A stretch of DNA of 64,000 bases from an uncultured Candidatus Saccharibacteria bacterium (GTDB lineage Bacteria; Patescibacteriota; Saccharimonadia; Saccharimonadales; Saccharimonadaceae): positions 1 through 64,000 of the forward strand of contig CAMVCW010000002.1 in NCBI GenBank assembly GCA_947166125.1. The letters are read 5' to 3'. Within the stretch, counting starts at the first letter, position 1, and each line of letters opens with the position of its first letter. Shown one piece after another: positions 201 to 7,486 of this stretch. The notes below the pieces were generated by a model, which made no database searches, was not told the DNA's origin, and saw only the letters and a list, made by a program, of their open reading frames with translations. The position numbers and the translations under genes were made by a program.

Positions 201-2198
201 ATGGTTAGGTTGTCGAGAACTAGATTAGTAAAGCGATCACTTATTTTTGCGGTTTTTCTAATCGCAATTGCTGCAGGGGCTTTTGCTGCTGCTAAAAATA
301 TTAAATTATTCCAGGTTAACGCTGCAGAATCAAAAATCAGAGTGTCTTGGACGGAGGACGACTGGGTTTTATGGAAAGACGGTAGTGGCTTTGGCACCCC
401 CAAACTTCATATTACTCCTGGTAATTATCTCGCCTATTGTGTAGACCCAGCTACAGCTGCACCTTCCGGAGAATTTGATACCACGACTTTTACTGGTAAA
501 AACGAAGATGCTATTAAGCTGGCAATCTATATAGCTTCCGCCAATACTACAACAACTAATAATGTAATGAATACTTGGTTTGATATTAATAATATTAACG
601 AATATTGGCAAAGTACTACCGGGCAATACCCTAATGTTACCACCGCAGAGGGCATGCGGAACTTCAGGTATATATTTATGCACATCGTGGTTGGCTATCT
701 CTATCACGAAGGTGAAGCCGATATAGAAAATAGAGTATCAACATACGTAGACGGTAAAGATAAAGTTTTGTTTGACAGAATAGTATCTACCCTAAAAGAT
801 TATGTCAACAACAAGGTTGATATCTGGCTCATGGCTCAAAATTACAAGCTATACAATATCATTAAACCAACCGGCTCAACAGTCCAAAACATTGTTTGGA
901 TTGAAAATGACCCAGATTCTGGTTCCATTAAGGTTCAAAAATGCGACGATGAGTCTGACTCCTGCACTACCCCGCAAGGCGCCGCCAGTTTTAGCGGAAT
1001 TAACTTTGCAATATATAATGCATCTGGTAGCAGAATTTACGTCCCTAGTAAAAACCAGTTTTATAACAACAATGCACTTATTGCTTCCGGAGCAACTAAC
1101 GCTAGTGGAAATATAACATTTTCTGGCTTACCGTTAAACGTTCTTTATAAAGTTGTCGAAACTAGCACTAACAAAAGCTACTTACTTACCGCTACTCCGC
1201 AAACTACCACTATCACCGTCGATGGCTCTACCAAGAATCTCAACTTCTCCGATGATGTTGTTCGTGGCGATCTCAAATTCATTAAAACTAGCGATGTAGA
1301 CGGTGAGCCTATGGCTAACGTAATATTTAAGATAAAATCCACTAGCGGTGCCAAAGAAGAGCATTTAGTGGTCACAGACGAAGATGGCATCGTAGATACT
1401 TCTGCATCCCATGCTTTGCACAGCTTCCACACTAACGGCTACGACGATATGGAAGAAGATGAAATAGAATATCTCGCTTATGGCACTTGGTTTGGTGCAG
1501 CTAATGCCGTAGATGATAACAGGGGTGCACTTCCGTACGATACGTATGAAATTACCGAACTTAAATGCGATGCCAATAAATTCTGTTACGATATTGGCGA
1601 TACCAAGAAAACCGTCACTATCAAAACCGATGGTGAGGTAGTAGACCTTGGCGAATGGTCTAATGACTGTGCGGAGTTTAGCATTACCACCATGGCCACA
1701 GACAATACCGACGGCGATAAAATAGTTGCTTTTAACGAAGATGTGGAAATTAAGGATGTGGTAGATTACTGTCTTAAAAAAGATATGGAATTTATCATTA
1801 AGGGCGTGGTGATGAATAAGAATACCAAAGAACCAGTCATGGTCGATGGGAAAAGAGTAGAACAAACTATTACGCTTACACCTGAAAGCACTTGTGGCAC
1901 TACCGAAATGATCTACAGTCTGAACACTAAGGACTTGGGCGGCACAGATCTAGTAATCTTTGAAGAGCTTTACTATGGAGACGAACTTATCCTTTCGCAC
2001 TCAGATTTCGATAACGCCAGTCAAACTGTTTCAGTCGCTCCACCGCCACCAGATACTGGTGCTATCACAAAAACTACCAACGGAGGCATTTTATCAAATA
2101 ATGCAATGATAATAGTATTCGCTATCGGCGGCGGCCTCGGCCTATATGCTAGCGCGAGAGCATTCTCTAGGAAAAGGTTCCTTAATAAAAAATACTAA
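201..2198 (+). CDS. Surface-anchored adhesin with thioester-like, SpaA/CnaB and T-Q ester (VaFE) domains
   Basis: Probably a cell-wall adhesin exposed outside the cell. Residues about 12-31 form a signal or membrane segment. A region around Cys80 (AYCVDP) resembles a thioester domain, then prealbumin/CnaB-like modules follow (starts GSIKVQK and RGDLKFIK). Next comes a module with the features of VaFE repeats (KIVAFNEDVEIKD ... LVIFEELYYGDE ... ASQTV), the family in which Thr-Gln ester bonds form. The C-terminus has PPPPDTG, a hydrophobic helix (about 632-652) and Arg/Lys, like a sortase signal with a degenerate LPxTG. The glutamine that would complete a thioester is not obvious, because the expected TQ position reads MH. 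Start chosen for AAAGGA and the consensus promoter. Domain assignment by pattern only. Confidence 0.8.
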   Translation: MVRLSRTRLVKRSLIFAVFLIAIAAGAFAAAKNIKLFQVNAAESKIRVSWTEDDWVLWKDGSGFGTPKLHITPGNYLAYCVDPATAAPSGEFDTTTFTGKNEDAIKLAIYIASANTTTTNNVMNTWFDINNINEYWQSTTGQYPNVTTAEGMRNFRYIFMHIVVGYLYHEGEADIENRVSTYVDGKDKVLFDRIVSTLKDYVNNKVDIWLMAQNYKLYNIIKPTGSTVQNIVWIENDPDSGSIKVQKCDDESDSCTTPQGAASFSGINFAIYNASGSRIYVPSKNQFYNNNALIASGATNASGNITFSGLPLNVLYKVVETSTNKSYLLTATPQTTTITVDGSTKNLNFSDDVVRGDLKFIKTSDVDGEPMANVIFKIKSTSGAKEEHLVVTDEDGIVDTSASHALHSFHTNGYDDMEEDEIEYLAYGTWFGAANAVDDNRGALPYDTYEITELKCDANKFCYDIGDTKKTVTIKTDGEVVDLGEWSNDCAEFSITTMATDNTDGDKIVAFNEDVEIKDVVDYCLKKDMEFIIKGVVMNKNTKEPVMVDGKRVEQTITLTPESTCGTTEMIYSLNTKDLGGTDLVIFEELYYGDELILSHSDFDNASQTVSVAPPPPDTGAITKTTNGGILSNNAMIIVFAIGGGLGLYASARAFSRKRFLNKKY

Positions 2199-2329: not shown

Positions 2330-4429
2330 TTATTTTGAATTTCTCTTCTCGATAATCTCTTGAGCTACGTTTGGTGGAACTTCCTCGTAGGCAAAGAGCT
2401 CCATGGAAGAGGCTGCACGGCCCTGCGTCATACCACGCAAATCACCGGTGTAGCCAAACAAGTTTGCTAGCGGGCAGAACGCCTTAATCAGCTTAGCGCC
2501 ACCGTTCAAATCTTCCATCTCATCAATCCGGCCACGGCGAGAGTTGATATCGCCAATTACGTCGCCCATGAATTCTTCTGGAGTAGTGATTTCAAGTTTC
2601 ATTACAGGTTCCAAGAGTACTGGATTAGCTTTCTTGATGCCTTCACGAGTAGCTAAAGCACCAGCCAAAGTAAAGGCGAGCTCAGAAGAGTCTACGTCGT
2701 GATAGCTACCATCATAGAGCGTAGCCTTAATGTCTACTACTGGGTAACCCGCAATAACGCCACCAGCAAGTGTGTCTTCCACGCCTTTCTGCACTGGTTT
2801 GCGGTATTCTTGAGGCACCACGCCGCCTTTAATTTGGTCAATAAATTCGAAACCTTTCCCTGGTTCGTTTGGTTCAAATTTGATCCATACGTCACCGTAC
2901 TGACCACGACCACCAGACTGCTTAATATGCTTACCTTGTGCCTCTGCCGTGCCACGAATAGTCTCACGATAAGCCACTTGTGGTGCGCCAGTGTTAGCTT
3001 CTACGTTATGTTCACGCTTCAAGCGGTCGATAATGATTTCTAGATGTAGCTCGCCCATACCAGAAATAATTGTTTGGCCAGTCTCTTCGTCAGTATGTAC
3101 GCGGAAAGTTGGATCTTCTTCCGCCATTTTAGAAAGCCCAAGCCCCATTTTTTCTTGATCGGCTTTAGTCTTTGGCTCAACGGCGATGGATACTGGTGGA
3201 TCTGGGAATTCAATGGACTCTAGTAAGATTGGATGTGCTGGATCACAAAGAGTAGTACCGGTGGTACAATTCTTGAGCCCCACGATAGCGGCAATGTCAC
3301 CTGCGCCAATTTCGGAAATCTCTTTACGATCGTTGGCATGCATACGTACCAAGCGTCCGATTCTTTCCTTGTCGCCAGTTGTGGCATTATATACGGTGTC
3401 ACCAGACTTTAATTTACCAGCATATACGCGTACAAAGATTAACTTACCTACGAACGGATCTGTCGCAATCTTAAATGCCAAAGCTGTCAAAGGCTCAGAG
3501 TTTTCAGCCTTACGTACGATTTCGTCACCAGTCTTTGGATTGGTGCCTACGGTTTGGCCTTGATCACGATCTAGAGGTGATGGCAAGTAATCGGTCATGA
3601 GGTCTAGGACTTTTTCTACAATTACACCACGACCATCGCCACCAGTTACTAAGAAGAAATCGCCGTCAAGCACGCGCTTGCGTAGTGCTGCCTTTAGCTC
3701 GTCTACAGTAATAGCGTCTTCGCCTTCCTCAAAGAACTTATTCATCAAGTTTTCATCGGCTTGGACGGCTTCCTCTACCAACATCGAACGAGCATTTTTG
3801 GCCTTCTCTACCATATCGGCTGGAATTTCACCGACTGTTAGCTCGTGGTCGGCATAATCCTTATAGGTGTAAGCCTTCATATCTACTAAATCTACTACGC
3901 CACAAATATCTTTTTCAAAACCAATTGGCAAGTGGATTGCTACTGCGTTTTTAGACAAGCGCTTGTGGATAGAATCTAGTGATTTATAGAAATCGCCACC
4001 AATCTGGTTAATTTTGTTTACGAAACAAATACGTGGAATACCATATTTAGTAGCCTGGCGCCATACAGTCTCAGACTGCGCTTCTACACCCATTTTGCCG
4101 TCAAATACCACCACGGCGCCATCTAGTACGCGTAGCGAACGCTCTACCTCGGCGGTAAAATCAATGTGGCCCGGGGTGTCAATAATGTTGATTTGATGAT
4201 TTTTCCAGAAAACCGTTACCGCAGCAGAAGTAATAGTGATACCACGTTCTTTTTCCTGCTCCATCCAGTCGGTATCAGCACCACCAGTGCCGCCCTTCAC
4301 TAGGTCAATTTTATGTTTCAGCCCCGTGCGATACAAAATCGCTTCCGAGGTAGTAGTTTTACCCGCGTCAATATGAGCGATAATCCCGATATTCCGCAGA
4401 TTTTTGAGGTCTTTAACTTCAGTAGCCAT
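2330..4429 (-). CDS. fusA: Translation elongation factor G
   Basis: GTPase that drives ribosomal translocation. The 699-residue product is full length. The G domain opens with NIGIIAHIDAGKTTTSEA (P-loop) followed by DTPGHIDF and NKINQ (NKxD-like). Later domains follow in the usual EF-G order, including RGQYGDV, and the C-terminal GYTGDLRGMTQGRAS. The ATG is preceded by AAAAGGAG with short spacing, one of the few housekeeping genes here with a clear Shine-Dalgarno. It stands alone, without rpsL/rpsG/tuf next to it. Confidence 0.98.
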   Translation of the reverse strand: MATEVKDLKNLRNIGIIAHIDAGKTTTSEAILYRTGLKHKIDLVKGGTGGADTDWMEQEKERGITITSAAVTVFWKNHQINIIDTPGHIDFTAEVERSLRVLDGAVVVFDGKMGVEAQSETVWRQATKYGIPRICFVNKINQIGGDFYKSLDSIHKRLSKNAVAIHLPIGFEKDICGVVDLVDMKAYTYKDYADHELTVGEIPADMVEKAKNARSMLVEEAVQADENLMNKFFEEGEDAITVDELKAALRKRVLDGDFFLVTGGDGRGVIVEKVLDLMTDYLPSPLDRDQGQTVGTNPKTGDEIVRKAENSEPLTALAFKIATDPFVGKLIFVRVYAGKLKSGDTVYNATTGDKERIGRLVRMHANDRKEISEIGAGDIAAIVGLKNCTTGTTLCDPAHPILLESIEFPDPPVSIAVEPKTKADQEKMGLGLSKMAEEDPTFRVHTDEETGQTIISGMGELHLEIIIDRLKREHNVEANTGAPQVAYRETIRGTAEAQGKHIKQSGGRGQYGDVWIKFEPNEPGKGFEFIDQIKGGVVPQEYRKPVQKGVEDTLAGGVIAGYPVVDIKATLYDGSYHDVDSSELAFTLAGALATREGIKKANPVLLEPVMKLEITTPEEFMGDVIGDINSRRGRIDEMEDLNGGAKLIKAFCPLANLFGYTGDLRGMTQGRAASSMELFAYEEVPPNVAQEIIEKRNSK

Positions 4430-4551
4430 ATGCTCCTTTTATTTATTATTTTGGTCTCTTTCAAGCTCCACACTCAAAAACAAGACATATTTTGCTAAAT
4501 TATACCATATCTTTTGAAAAAATAAAATGAAAATCATCTAAAATTTCGACC

Positions 4552-4618: not shown

Positions 4619-5326
4619 TCAGACATAAATGGTTGTTTCTTTTACCTTTTGGATGGAACATGCTAGCATATCCCATCTTCCAGTCGCTTTTAGATCGTCT
4701 CTGAAGATCTGCAGAATGCATTGATATGCATCTTCCAACTTATCTGCCGGTATTCCTGACCATTCTTGCAGTATATCGTTCGGGATAGATACCCCGCCTT
4801 TATACCACGCCAAGAACATTCTTACAGGCATTCCGATTTTCTGTTCCGTAAGATAAAAGTGGTCACCGGCTTTGGAGCTAGTAGCCTTGCAAGATACGTA
4901 CTTCAATTTTCTGTACTTATGCTTATGGAACACTATATCTAAGTGACCATATTTCAATAATAGTTCATTGAAGCATGCATTTACTGCAGGAATGTTATAG
5001 TCTTTCAACGATTCTGGCGACATTGATGCTACCAAATCAAGCTGCAGAATGTCACTCCACAGAGACATTGCGACTTCTACGGCTTGCAGTAGGTATCGTT
5101 TGCCGTAATACTTGTAGTATTCCAAAACACCATAAGCGACAATTAACGCCTTTTCGGTTTTCGGAATACTTGAGTAGACGAAGGGCCTTTGAATAAAATC
5201 CTTTGCCTTTTTACTATACGTCTTCTGTCTGCGATAGTTGCCTATTCTCTTTCTCTTCTTCTTTTCCTTTCTTCTCTCAAGAAGTGAGGAAAACCATGTT
5301 AATAATACGTTTGCGATTTTTCTCAT
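4619..5326 (-). CDS. Hypothetical protein with Lys/Arg-rich N-terminus
   Basis: I do not recognise this 235-residue product. It begins MRKIANVLLTWFSSLL, a short amphipathic or hydrophobic stretch, then a strongly basic run (about 18-40), then a mixed alpha-helical body with no catalytic motif that I can name. The open frame extends to 5413, but a perfect promoter (5385-5413) sits inside that extension, so the ATG at 5326 is the likely start. The leader of about 50 nt contains a small hairpin (CTGGG/CCCAG). It has its own promoter and terminator, so it is a single-gene unit. Confidence 0.6.
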   Translation of the reverse strand: MRKIANVLLTWFSSLLERRKEKKKRKRIGNYRRQKTYSKKAKDFIQRPFVYSSIPKTEKALIVAYGVLEYYKYYGKRYLLQAVEVAMSLWSDILQLDLVASMSPESLKDYNIPAVNACFNELLLKYGHLDIVFHKHKYRKLKYVSCKATSSKAGDHFYLTEQKIGMPVRMFLAWYKGGVSIPNDILQEWSGIPADKLEDAYQCILQIFRDDLKATGRWDMLACSIQKVKETTIYV

Positions 5327-5384
5327 ACAGTAAGCACCGTCCCTGTTTTTATTTACTGGGCGCAAAACCTCCCAGCTTACCACC

Positions 5385-5413
5385 ATTATACCACACATGC
5401 TTATTTTTGTCAA
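5385..5413 (-). promoter_or_regulatory. Consensus promoter of the 4619-5326 gene
   Basis: Minus strand TTGACA (5413-5408), 17-nt spacer, TATAAT (5390-5385). Perfect sigma-70 consensus. Confidence 0.85.
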
Positions 5414-5442
5414 GCATAAACCGTTAGATTTGATTGAAAGGC

Positions 5443-5475
5443 AGGAAAAATCCCAGTACTGGCTGTACTGGGATT
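5443..5475 (-). terminator. Terminator of the large RNA
   Basis: An 11-bp stem (5465-5475 with 5449-5459, loop of five) followed on the minus strand by TTTTTCCTGCC. Confidence 0.85.
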
Positions 5476-6034
5476 AGAGAGAATAGTCATCCTGAGCCGA
5501 TTATTCATTATTCAATTGTTCATTGACAAGCAATAGGGTTTAGATTTGCGACCGGCTCTGGGTCGCGCTTACTGGATGACTTTTAATGTTCGGACGTGTT
5601 ACTAAAACGATAAAAACGATTTCGTGTGTTCGCATGCCTACGCATCTGTGAACATATGCGCAAGGATTTTTACCGAGGCTACTGTATTAGGGGAAGTGAA
5701 AACCTTAGATAATATAACTTCCGCAAACGGTAGCCTCTTAAGCTACTTCGGTACGAGTTTGTCGTACGCTTGTGCCGCCACGGTGTAGGGGGTATTTCGC
5801 TGAAGATCGTCCCCCAGCGGCTTTTCCGAAAGACCTAATCCTTCAGGTACTGGCCGCCCTATCGGCGCGGCAAAACCTGGGATCCTCATCGGGAAAAAGA
5901 TTCGCGTCAAGGATAATTTCCTCCTTTCCGGCTGGGACGTAGTACATACTTACGTCAATGACGAGCCACCGCCCTAGGTTTGCTTGCTTATGATCGTTTT
6001 AAATAACACAAGACAGATATCGGAACTGTCTATG
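5443..6034 (-). ncRNA. Candidate large structured RNA, about 590 nt, with pseudoknots
   Basis: This 660-nt stretch has no supported reading frame but is a complete transcription unit on the minus strand: promoter at 6041-6069 and strong terminator at 5443-5475. The inside is full of complementary segments. Two H-type pseudoknots are visible (5627-5631/5650-5654 with 5641-5645/5656-5660; 5788-5792/5811-5815 with 5798-5802/5815-5819). There is a long stem 5675-5682/5730-5737 with an inner stem 5692-5697/5717-5722. A nested domain near the 3' end has 5486-5492/5574-5580 plus loop pairing 5494-5499/5553-5558. Other hairpins are at 5751-5767, 5833-5848, 5853-5871 and 6011-6031. I could not match it to tmRNA, RNase P RNA or SRP RNA. 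It could be one of the large ornate RNAs or a new class. Confidence 0.7.
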
Positions 6035-6040
6035 CAGACT

Positions 6041-6069
6041 ATCTTATCGCATCTATTAGCATCCGTCAA
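6041..6069 (-). promoter_or_regulatory. Promoter of the large RNA
   Basis: Minus strand TTGACG (6069-6064), 17-nt spacer, TAAGAT (6046-6041), immediately after the gatB stop codon. Predicted start near 6034. Confidence 0.75.
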
Positions 6070-6073
6070 GCGC

Positions 6074-7486
6074 TTAAGCTAACTTTTTTCGTAAAATCTC
6101 TTGCACAGCGGATGGATTAGCTTTGCCATGAGACTCTTTCATGACTTGCCCCACCAAGAAACCAATCACTTTTTCTTCCCCAGCCCTAAAATCAGCCTGG
6201 GCCTTCTGAGTTTCCGGCTTAGCTAGAACCGTATCTACTATTGCTTCTAGGGCGCCCAAATCATTTTCTTGAATTAACCCCAATTCCTTAGCGATAACCT
6301 TAGCGTCGCGGCCTTTCATTTGTGGATCAAACAATCGGAGGAATACTTCTTTTGTGGCGGTAGAGCTGAGCTCTTTTTTCTCGTTCATCTCTGCTAAATC
6401 ATTTAATTGCTTTGCAGTTGGCAAATCATTGAGATATTCCGCCGATTTTTCCTCAGCTAATAATACAGAAGTAAACAAATTTGCGATCGCTACCACATAT
6501 TTCTCATCAATCTCAGCAAGTTTTTTCATTAATTCGGCATAATCTAGTAGAACCTCTAAAATCTCAGCCTTCAAAACACCACCAAATCTCTTGCGATAAT
6601 CTGTTGGCATTAGCGGCAATTTTGCGGATTCTGTCTCAATGAATTCAGTGGTTAGATTAATCGGTGGTAAGTCTGGCTCTGGCATATAGCGATAGTCTTT
6701 AGCCTCTTCCTTGCTACGCTGTCCAGTAGTTTTGCCGGTACTATCGTTCCAACCCCTAGTTTCCTGCACTACCTTTTCACCAGCATCTAGCAATTTACTC
6801 TGTCGCGCAATTTCATATTCTACGGCTCGCTCTACGCTTCTGAATGAATTTAAATTCTTCACCTCGGCGCGCGTACCAAGCTCAGTAGCGCCTTCTGGCG
6901 CCAAAGAAACATTTACATCAAAACGCATATTGCCATTATATAAATCTCCATACGATACCCCGGCAAAAGTCATCAGCCGCCATAGTTCCTTACAGTAATC
7001 ATGTGCATCTTTCGCCGAGTGAATATCCGGCATGGACACAATCTCAATTAATGGCGTATCTACGCGGTTTAAATCCACCAGTGAATACGTATCAAAATGC
7101 GTTAATTTACCCGCATCACCCTCCAGGTGTGCGTGCTCTATGCGAATTTTGGTACCGGATGGCAATTCCACATAACCTTCACCGATAATTGGATGATAAA
7201 ACTGAGTAATCTGATAACCTTTTGGTGAATCTGGGTAGAAATAATGTTTGCGATCAAACCGAGAGTAAGCATTAATTTCGCAGTTCATAGCCCTACCAGC
7301 CAAGATTGCAAACTTTATTGCTTCCCCGTTTAGACGCGGCAACATGCCCGGCAAGGCATAATCTACCGGCGATACGCAAGAATTTGGCTCCTTTCCCCTT
7401 GCATCATTATCCACCTCAGAAAATAATTTCGTTTTGGTGGCTAGCTGTACATGACATTCTATGCCAATTGTAGGTATATACTTCAT
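6074..7486 (-). CDS. gatB: Asp/Glu-tRNA(Asn/Gln) amidotransferase subunit B
   Basis: The tRNA-binding kinase subunit of GatCAB, which converts Glu-tRNA(Gln) or Asp-tRNA(Asn) to the amide form. The 470 residues are normal length. It begins PTIGIECHVQL and carries the catalytic-domain block FDRKHYFYPDSPKGYQITQ and the C-terminal GatB/YqeY helical domain. Its ATG overlaps the previous stop as TAATG, with GGAG just upstream, so translation is probably coupled to the 7486-7905 gene. Confidence 0.97.
   Translation of the reverse strand: MKYIPTIGIECHVQLATKTKLFSEVDNDARGKEPNSCVSPVDYALPGMLPRLNGEAIKFAILAGRAMNCEINAYSRFDRKHYFYPDSPKGYQITQFYHPIIGEGYVELPSGTKIRIEHAHLEGDAGKLTHFDTYSLVDLNRVDTPLIEIVSMPDIHSAKDAHDYCKELWRLMTFAGVSYGDLYNGNMRFDVNVSLAPEGATELGTRAEVKNLNSFRSVERAVEYEIARQSKLLDAGEKVVQETRGWNDSTGKTTGQRSKEEAKDYRYMPEPDLPPINLTTEFIETESAKLPLMPTDYRKRFGGVLKAEILEVLLDYAELMKKLAEIDEKYVVAIANLFTSVLLAEEKSAEYLNDLPTAKQLNDLAEMNEKKELSSTATKEVFLRLFDPQMKGRDAKVIAKELGLIQENDLGALEAIVDTVLAKPETQKAQADFRAGEEKVIGFLVGQVMKESHGKANPSAVQEILRKKLA

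Follow-up and report, generated by a model that had tools for sequence, protein, structure and literature searches.

What kind of gene is a long, strongly folded transcript that lies between gatB and fusA in a saccharibacterial genome: a large non-coding RNA, the message of a small protein, or both? Saccharibacteria are reduced epibionts, and a literature search found no paper that treats them together with 'structured RNA' and none that links them to small proteins and small RNA. The transcript lies in a stretch of 64,000 nucleotides, here called the window, at the start of contig CAMVCW010000002.1 of an uncultured Candidatus Saccharibacteria bacterium, whose genome (G000) has 816,580 bases on 8 contigs. 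The original prediction described a non-coding unit that may be a new large RNA class or a strongly diverged known one; its observations were partly confirmed and its interpretation was partly supported. The locus is best read as a swappable islet upstream of fusA that contains a member of a new mRNA family: structured, translation-gated messages for small proteins, possibly with a dual function.

Transcription unit, relatives and known RNA families

The order of the locus is gatB (6074-7486), the RNA, an orphan gene and fusA (2330-4429), with the RNA on the minus strand (Table 1), and the order is identical in genome G175. The promoter and terminator predicted for a unit of about 590 nt were both confirmed, the unit measuring about 585 nt. 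The promoter boxes are TTGACG (6069-6064) and TAAGAT (6046-6041); the U-count of the terminator falls under the strict limit of the scan tool, yet the terminator is kept in the homologues. The whole RNA folds at -183.9 kcal/mol, and the z scores against shuffles are -4.4 for the window RNA and -5.6 for the G175 homologue. The neighbour, originally called a 4.6-kb orphan gene, sits at 4.6 kb in the window and is about 0.7 kb long.

Table 1. Features of the RNA unit and of the adjoining orphan gene, in window coordinates
Feature	Positions	Strand	Evidence
RNA promoter, sigma70-like, TTGACG-17-TAAGAT	6041..6069	-	consensus scan; kept in G175, G267, G334, G338
Structured transcript, ~585 nt	5446..6034	-	fold z = -4.4; same-order homologues in relatives
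5' hairpin, first RNA element	6011..6031	-	compensatory changes, 4/6 pairs, window vs G175
Closing helix, 5' strand	5993..6010	-	cognate vs non-cognate duplex energies
Shine-Dalgarno AGGAGG, 9 nt ahead of start	5920..5925	-	anti-SD duplex -16.3 kcal/mol
Small ORF, 55 aa, TTG start, TAG stop: MTRIFFPMRIPGFAAPIGRPVPEGLGLSEKPLGDDLQRNTPYTVAAQAYDKLVPK	5743..5910	-	dN/dS, profile matches, C-terminal motif
Post-stop hairpin, begins 6 nt past stop, GAGGCUAC...GUAGCCUC	5675..5737	-	pairing and compensatory changes
Closing helix, 3' strand	5595..5611	-	cognate vs non-cognate duplex energies
Conserved linker CGNACNTTA, directly past closing helix	5584..5592	-	intact or one change in 9/9 aligned genomes
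3' domain, long hairpin	5482..5585	-	consensus folds with compensatory pairs
Intrinsic terminator, hairpin and T-run	5446..5475	-	sequence; both-side changes in homologues
Orphan gene's own promoter, consensus, TTGACA-17-TATAAT	5385..5413	-	
Neighbour orphan gene, 235 aa from ATG, 264 aa from first TTG	4619..5326	-	

A direct DNA search of 198 genomes of the family gave confident matches only to the promoter and terminator ends in G175, and therefore the intervals were fetched by synteny, with gatB as the anchor, from 174 genomes of the genus. RNAs of the window type were found in G267, G334, G338, G175, G238, G327, G252 and G294, and related RNAs with longer or shorter parts in G242, G329, G284, G331, G239, G191, G332, G216, G246 and G150, perhaps also in G259 and G223. 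The same order of architecture is held by the homologues of G175, G267, G334, G338, G238, G327 and others. Nine further gatB-fusA intervals (L057, L063, L070, L085, L091, L096, L097, L098 and L105) have a different, shorter RNA-like unit at the same site, of about 200-350 nt, with a promoter, a closing helix and a terminator and with no clear ORF, except perhaps in L105. These shorter units had no Rfam match among those searched.

The window RNA matched no Rfam family at the gathering score, and at E values up to 10 it gave only chance matches to unrelated families. Likewise, Rfam, including ROOL, GOLLD and OLE, returned no matches at or near the gathering score for the window and 20 related loci. 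The covariance models of tmRNA (RF00023) and RNase P RNA (RF00010) did not match at the window RNA; both RNAs are found above the cut-offs on another contig of the genome, G000:C4, the RNase P RNA with 230 bits. A blastn search against phages found no match to the RNA. The syntenic intervals of relatives contain the compensatory changes that were looked for. With these changes and without a counterpart in Rfam, the unit bears out the 'new structured RNA' part of the prediction.

Other elements of the neighbourhood are also conserved. The leader of the orphan gene (window 5326-5390, minus strand; also L016, L018, L019 and L020) carries a conserved hairpin of the GGG(A/T)G(G/A)-TTTTGCG-CCC type whose stem sequence varies. 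The 5' leader of fusA, 'GTCTTGTTTTTGAGTGTGGAGCTT...' (window 4430-4500, minus), is common to all fusA leaders across the genus and is a possible regulatory element or leader peptide. On the plus strand, window 201-2198 encodes by inspection a 665-aa surface protein, possibly an adhesin, with a TQXA/thioester-like YCVDP motif, Cna-B-like repeats, a PPPDTG sortase-type motif and a C-terminal membrane anchor.

The fold and the small gene within it

The transcript opens with a 5' hairpin that is formed in 9/9 genomes tested, with unrelated sequences. The closing helix that follows joins strands about 400 nt apart in the long forms and holds the ORF and its ribosome-binding site inside; over nine genomes, its cognate duplexes average -18.0 kcal/mol versus -8.5 kcal/mol for non-cognate ones. 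In the post-stop hairpin, 96% of the cells are paired across six genomes, as against 32-44% in slid controls, and two pairs have changed on both sides. Of the alternative pairings proposed for 5730-5734, the long-range one with 5678-5682 is the conserved one and is kept with compensatory changes, while that with 5742-5746, around the stop codon, can form in G238 and G327 and is not kept in G175 or G334. Consensus folds of the subgroups back the named elements and, more weakly, several further elements, the covariation coming from few sequences and the alignments of such diverged RNAs being uncertain.

In G218 and G228, the RNA is about 260 nt long; it has the 5' hairpin, the closing helix, the linker (CGNACNTTA) and the terminator in common with the long forms but no recognisable SD-driven ORF. 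Conservation of the structure independently of the ORF, as would be expected of a dual-function RNA, is seen in few sequences, and the ORF-less forms argue, from comparison of their architecture, that the RNA may matter by itself. Should they be mere degenerate copies, however, the argument at the RNA level would lose force. A search for targets of the ribosome-binding-site type with these short forms retrieved the RNA locus itself only.

The statement that the unit has no coding capacity was wrong. In each of the long RNAs, a Shine-Dalgarno sequence precedes an ORF of about 50-68 codons, for which TTG is the usual start; in the window this ORF has 55 codons and a strong Shine-Dalgarno. The Shine-Dalgarno is near-perfect in most RNAs and is a near complement of the 16S tail, with duplexes of -12.6 to -17.5 kcal/mol in 18/19 RNAs and a weaker one in G252; its spacing from the start is 6-9 nt in 17/19. 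It is predicted to pair with a UCCUU that overlaps the UUG start, and in the window both the Shine-Dalgarno and the start are partly paired (predicted 0.67 and 0.69).

Three pairs of relatives give low dN/dS values in the true frame (window/G267 0.18, G238/G327 0.21, G242/G331 0.20), and in all three the third codon positions take most of the substitutions. As expected, dN/dS is low as well in the reverse frame with which the degenerate position is shared; weaker pairs are G334/G238 (0.38), G242/G329 (0.40) and G329/G331 (1.08). Judged by these substitutions, the ORF evolves as a protein under purifying selection, with a signal that is not uniform across pairs. Translation of the small ORF, the other property expected of a dual-function RNA, is indicated by its evolutionary signature. 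Unlike ROOL, GOLLD or OLE, which are large non-coding RNAs, the RNA codes for a conserved small protein, and its sequence is in part conserved at the level of codons.

The peptides end in the motif [YH]-x-K/E-x-x-P-x-stop. When they are aligned at the stop codon, proline occupies position -2 in 17/18, with all four codons used, Lys/Glu occupies -5 in 17/18 and Tyr/His occupies -7 in 14/18. The last 7-9 positions are the most conserved, and the N-terminus is conserved as well. Read-through of the stop codon was rejected, since a further in-frame stop follows two codons downstream in the homologues of G175 and G334. Profile searches found the peptide family in about 20 of the 174 genomes of the genus, in one copy each and beside gatB or fusA, and, among 394 sampled genomes of the family, in none of the 60 other genera. 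The small protein has no match in Pfam, PHROGs or, by a small-protein search, viral contigs; AlphaFold2 gives it no confident fold (pLDDT 57), and it is predicted to be disordered.

RNAs of the G242 type (L055, L064, L066, L122 and L123) contain in their 3' part many CUCCUUU/CCUUUCU motifs that resemble anti-Shine-Dalgarno sequences, with 11-16 matching hexamers, where shuffled sequences have about 2.5 (0 of 300). These motifs often follow CAU, so that the opposite strand reads as repeated Shine-Dalgarno plus ATG with tiny ORFs. Such seeds as a common sRNA mechanism were rejected, as they are enriched in the G242 subgroup only and are absent from the window RNA.

Replacement of the islet and its neighbour gene

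Close relatives of the window genome differ sharply at this site. The gatB genes of G334, G338 and G267 are 94.2%, 95.2% and 95.2% identical to that of the window, the fusA of G334 is 94.6% identical, and the RNA promoter is kept in the three genomes at 91%. Around the 5' end of the RNA, identity between G334 and the window breaks off, and it returns from the terminator that follows the orphan gene; in between, the RNAs are 58.3% identical (best shuffle 57.4%) and the orphan proteins 29%. Rather, the G334 RNA is closer to those of G238 and G327 (64.8% and 66.4% identity), as is its peptide, although the backgrounds of these two genomes are much more distant (the gatB of G238 is only 77% identical). 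Because the flanks are about 94% identical while the RNA is at shuffle level, the orphan protein is at 29% and the kin lie in distant genomes, the RNA and the orphan gene must have been replaced as one block in G334.

The orphan family also occurs independently of the RNA: at this site, G238 and G327 carry the RNA but no orphan gene, and several genomes have the orphan gene without the RNA. The orphan protein is lineage-specific and fast-evolving, with GMPVR-FL-W-KG and EWSGIP motifs, and its A6 homologues occupy the same site in many genomes; the window form has a very basic N-terminus. It has no Pfam match, and its AlphaFold2 model (pLDDT 80, mostly helical) gave no convincing match to the PDB with Foldseek and VIA-align.

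Competing readings and related systems

The reading of the unit as a structured monocistronic gene for a small-protein mRNA, which probably also acts as an RNA in the manner of the dual-function type, is given an even chance. The closing helix and the hairpin that holds the Shine-Dalgarno and the weak UUG start would limit initiation until they are remodelled. A ribosome translating the ORF would keep the hairpin just past the stop open, terminating ribosomes would disturb it, and the C-terminal motif may act near termination or serve as the functional end of the peptide. In addition, the RNA may have its own second function. A plain small-protein mRNA, with the peptide as sole product and a structure that stabilises the message and sets the level of translation, is possible but must be called tentative. 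Coding selection and the strong Shine-Dalgarno agree with it, and control of translation by 5'-3' UTR pairing is known from icaR mRNA of Staphylococcus aureus (PMC3868564). Against it, about 415 of the 585 nt are untranslated yet structured and conserved in architecture, and the short forms of G218 and G228 keep this architecture without a recognisable ORF. The swapping of the islet as a cassette suggests a role that gains from strain diversity, for example in competition, defence or recognition. A doubtful extension of this idea is a polymorphic module in which the folded RNA and its inner peptide cooperate, translation switches the fold, and the cassette, together with a partner protein, is passed between strains in the way of competition or defence loci.

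The remaining readings have less in their favour. A nascent-peptide sensor is unlikely. In this reading, a ribosome stalled on the stop codon by the C-terminal motif would block the post-stop hairpin, with effects on RNA folding, on termination or on read-through in the direction of the orphan gene or fusA. The residues that would lie near the arrest point are conserved, most strongly in the last 7-9 with P at -2, conserved nucleotides and a hairpin follow directly past the stop, and the peptide is predicted to be disordered and always lies near gatB or fusA; but the N-terminus is conserved too, and cis control is not obvious because the RNA and the next gene are separated by an intrinsic terminator and by that gene's own strong promoter. 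Folding of the hok type with the peptide as toxin, as in a type I toxin-antitoxin-like module, is very unlikely. It would account for the 5'-3' closing helix, the ribosome-binding site in a hairpin, the small ORF and the variable islet, yet a consensus scan, which can miss promoters, found no sigma70-like promoter on the plus strand at 5350-6130 and thus none opposite the unit, and by inspection the hydrophobic N-terminus of the peptide is short and no segment is of transmembrane length. That the RNA is a strongly diverged tmRNA, RNase P RNA, ROOL, GOLLD or OLE, the second half of the original alternative, is scarcely credible: size, pseudoknot-like pairings and an ORF within a closed fold as in tmRNA speak for it, whereas even the permissive Rfam search gave nothing beyond chance and the genome has its RNase P RNA and tmRNA elsewhere, above the cut-offs.

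The locus thus presents a family of folded RNAs with a conserved small-protein gene at a fixed chromosomal site, beside translation-factor genes, that is swapped between near-identical strains. The gatB-fusA locus is a concrete place at which RNA- or peptide-based regulation or conflict can be tested in Saccharibacteria. It is also a warning that a 'large non-coding RNA' of such a genome can conceal a small non-ATG gene overlooked by annotation.

The window RNA is not a member by homology of the RNAIII-type, hok, icaR or TnaC-like systems. In icaR mRNA, base pairing between the 3' and the 5' UTR controls translation directly, and the message encodes a full-size regulator (PMC3868564). The window RNA resembles it in the pairing of untranslated ends around an ORF and differs in the short length of that ORF. 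With tmRNA it shares an ORF within a closed structured RNA, but it has no Rfam match, its ORF is SD-driven and the genome has its own tmRNA. The hok mRNA of hok/sok has 5'-3' pairing and a ribosome-binding site in structure. Both traits recur in the window unit, for which the consensus scan found no antisense promoter and whose peptide is no obvious membrane toxin. TnaC-type arrest peptides likewise have conserved C-terminal residues beside the stop and a proline near the end; the window ORF, in contrast, is not upstream of a regulated gene on the same transcript. RNAIII of Staphylococcus aureus encodes delta-haemolysin, and SgrS/SgrT, SR1/SR1P and VcdRP are further dual-function RNAs. PMC8672173 and PMC8501984 describe RNAs of this kind. 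The window RNA has no sequence relation to any of them and differs in its ORF of about 55 codons inside a 5'-3' closing helix and in an islet swapped between strains; the likeness, one of type alone, is that a short ORF lies within a small, structured RNA, and in its working the RNAIII type comes closest.
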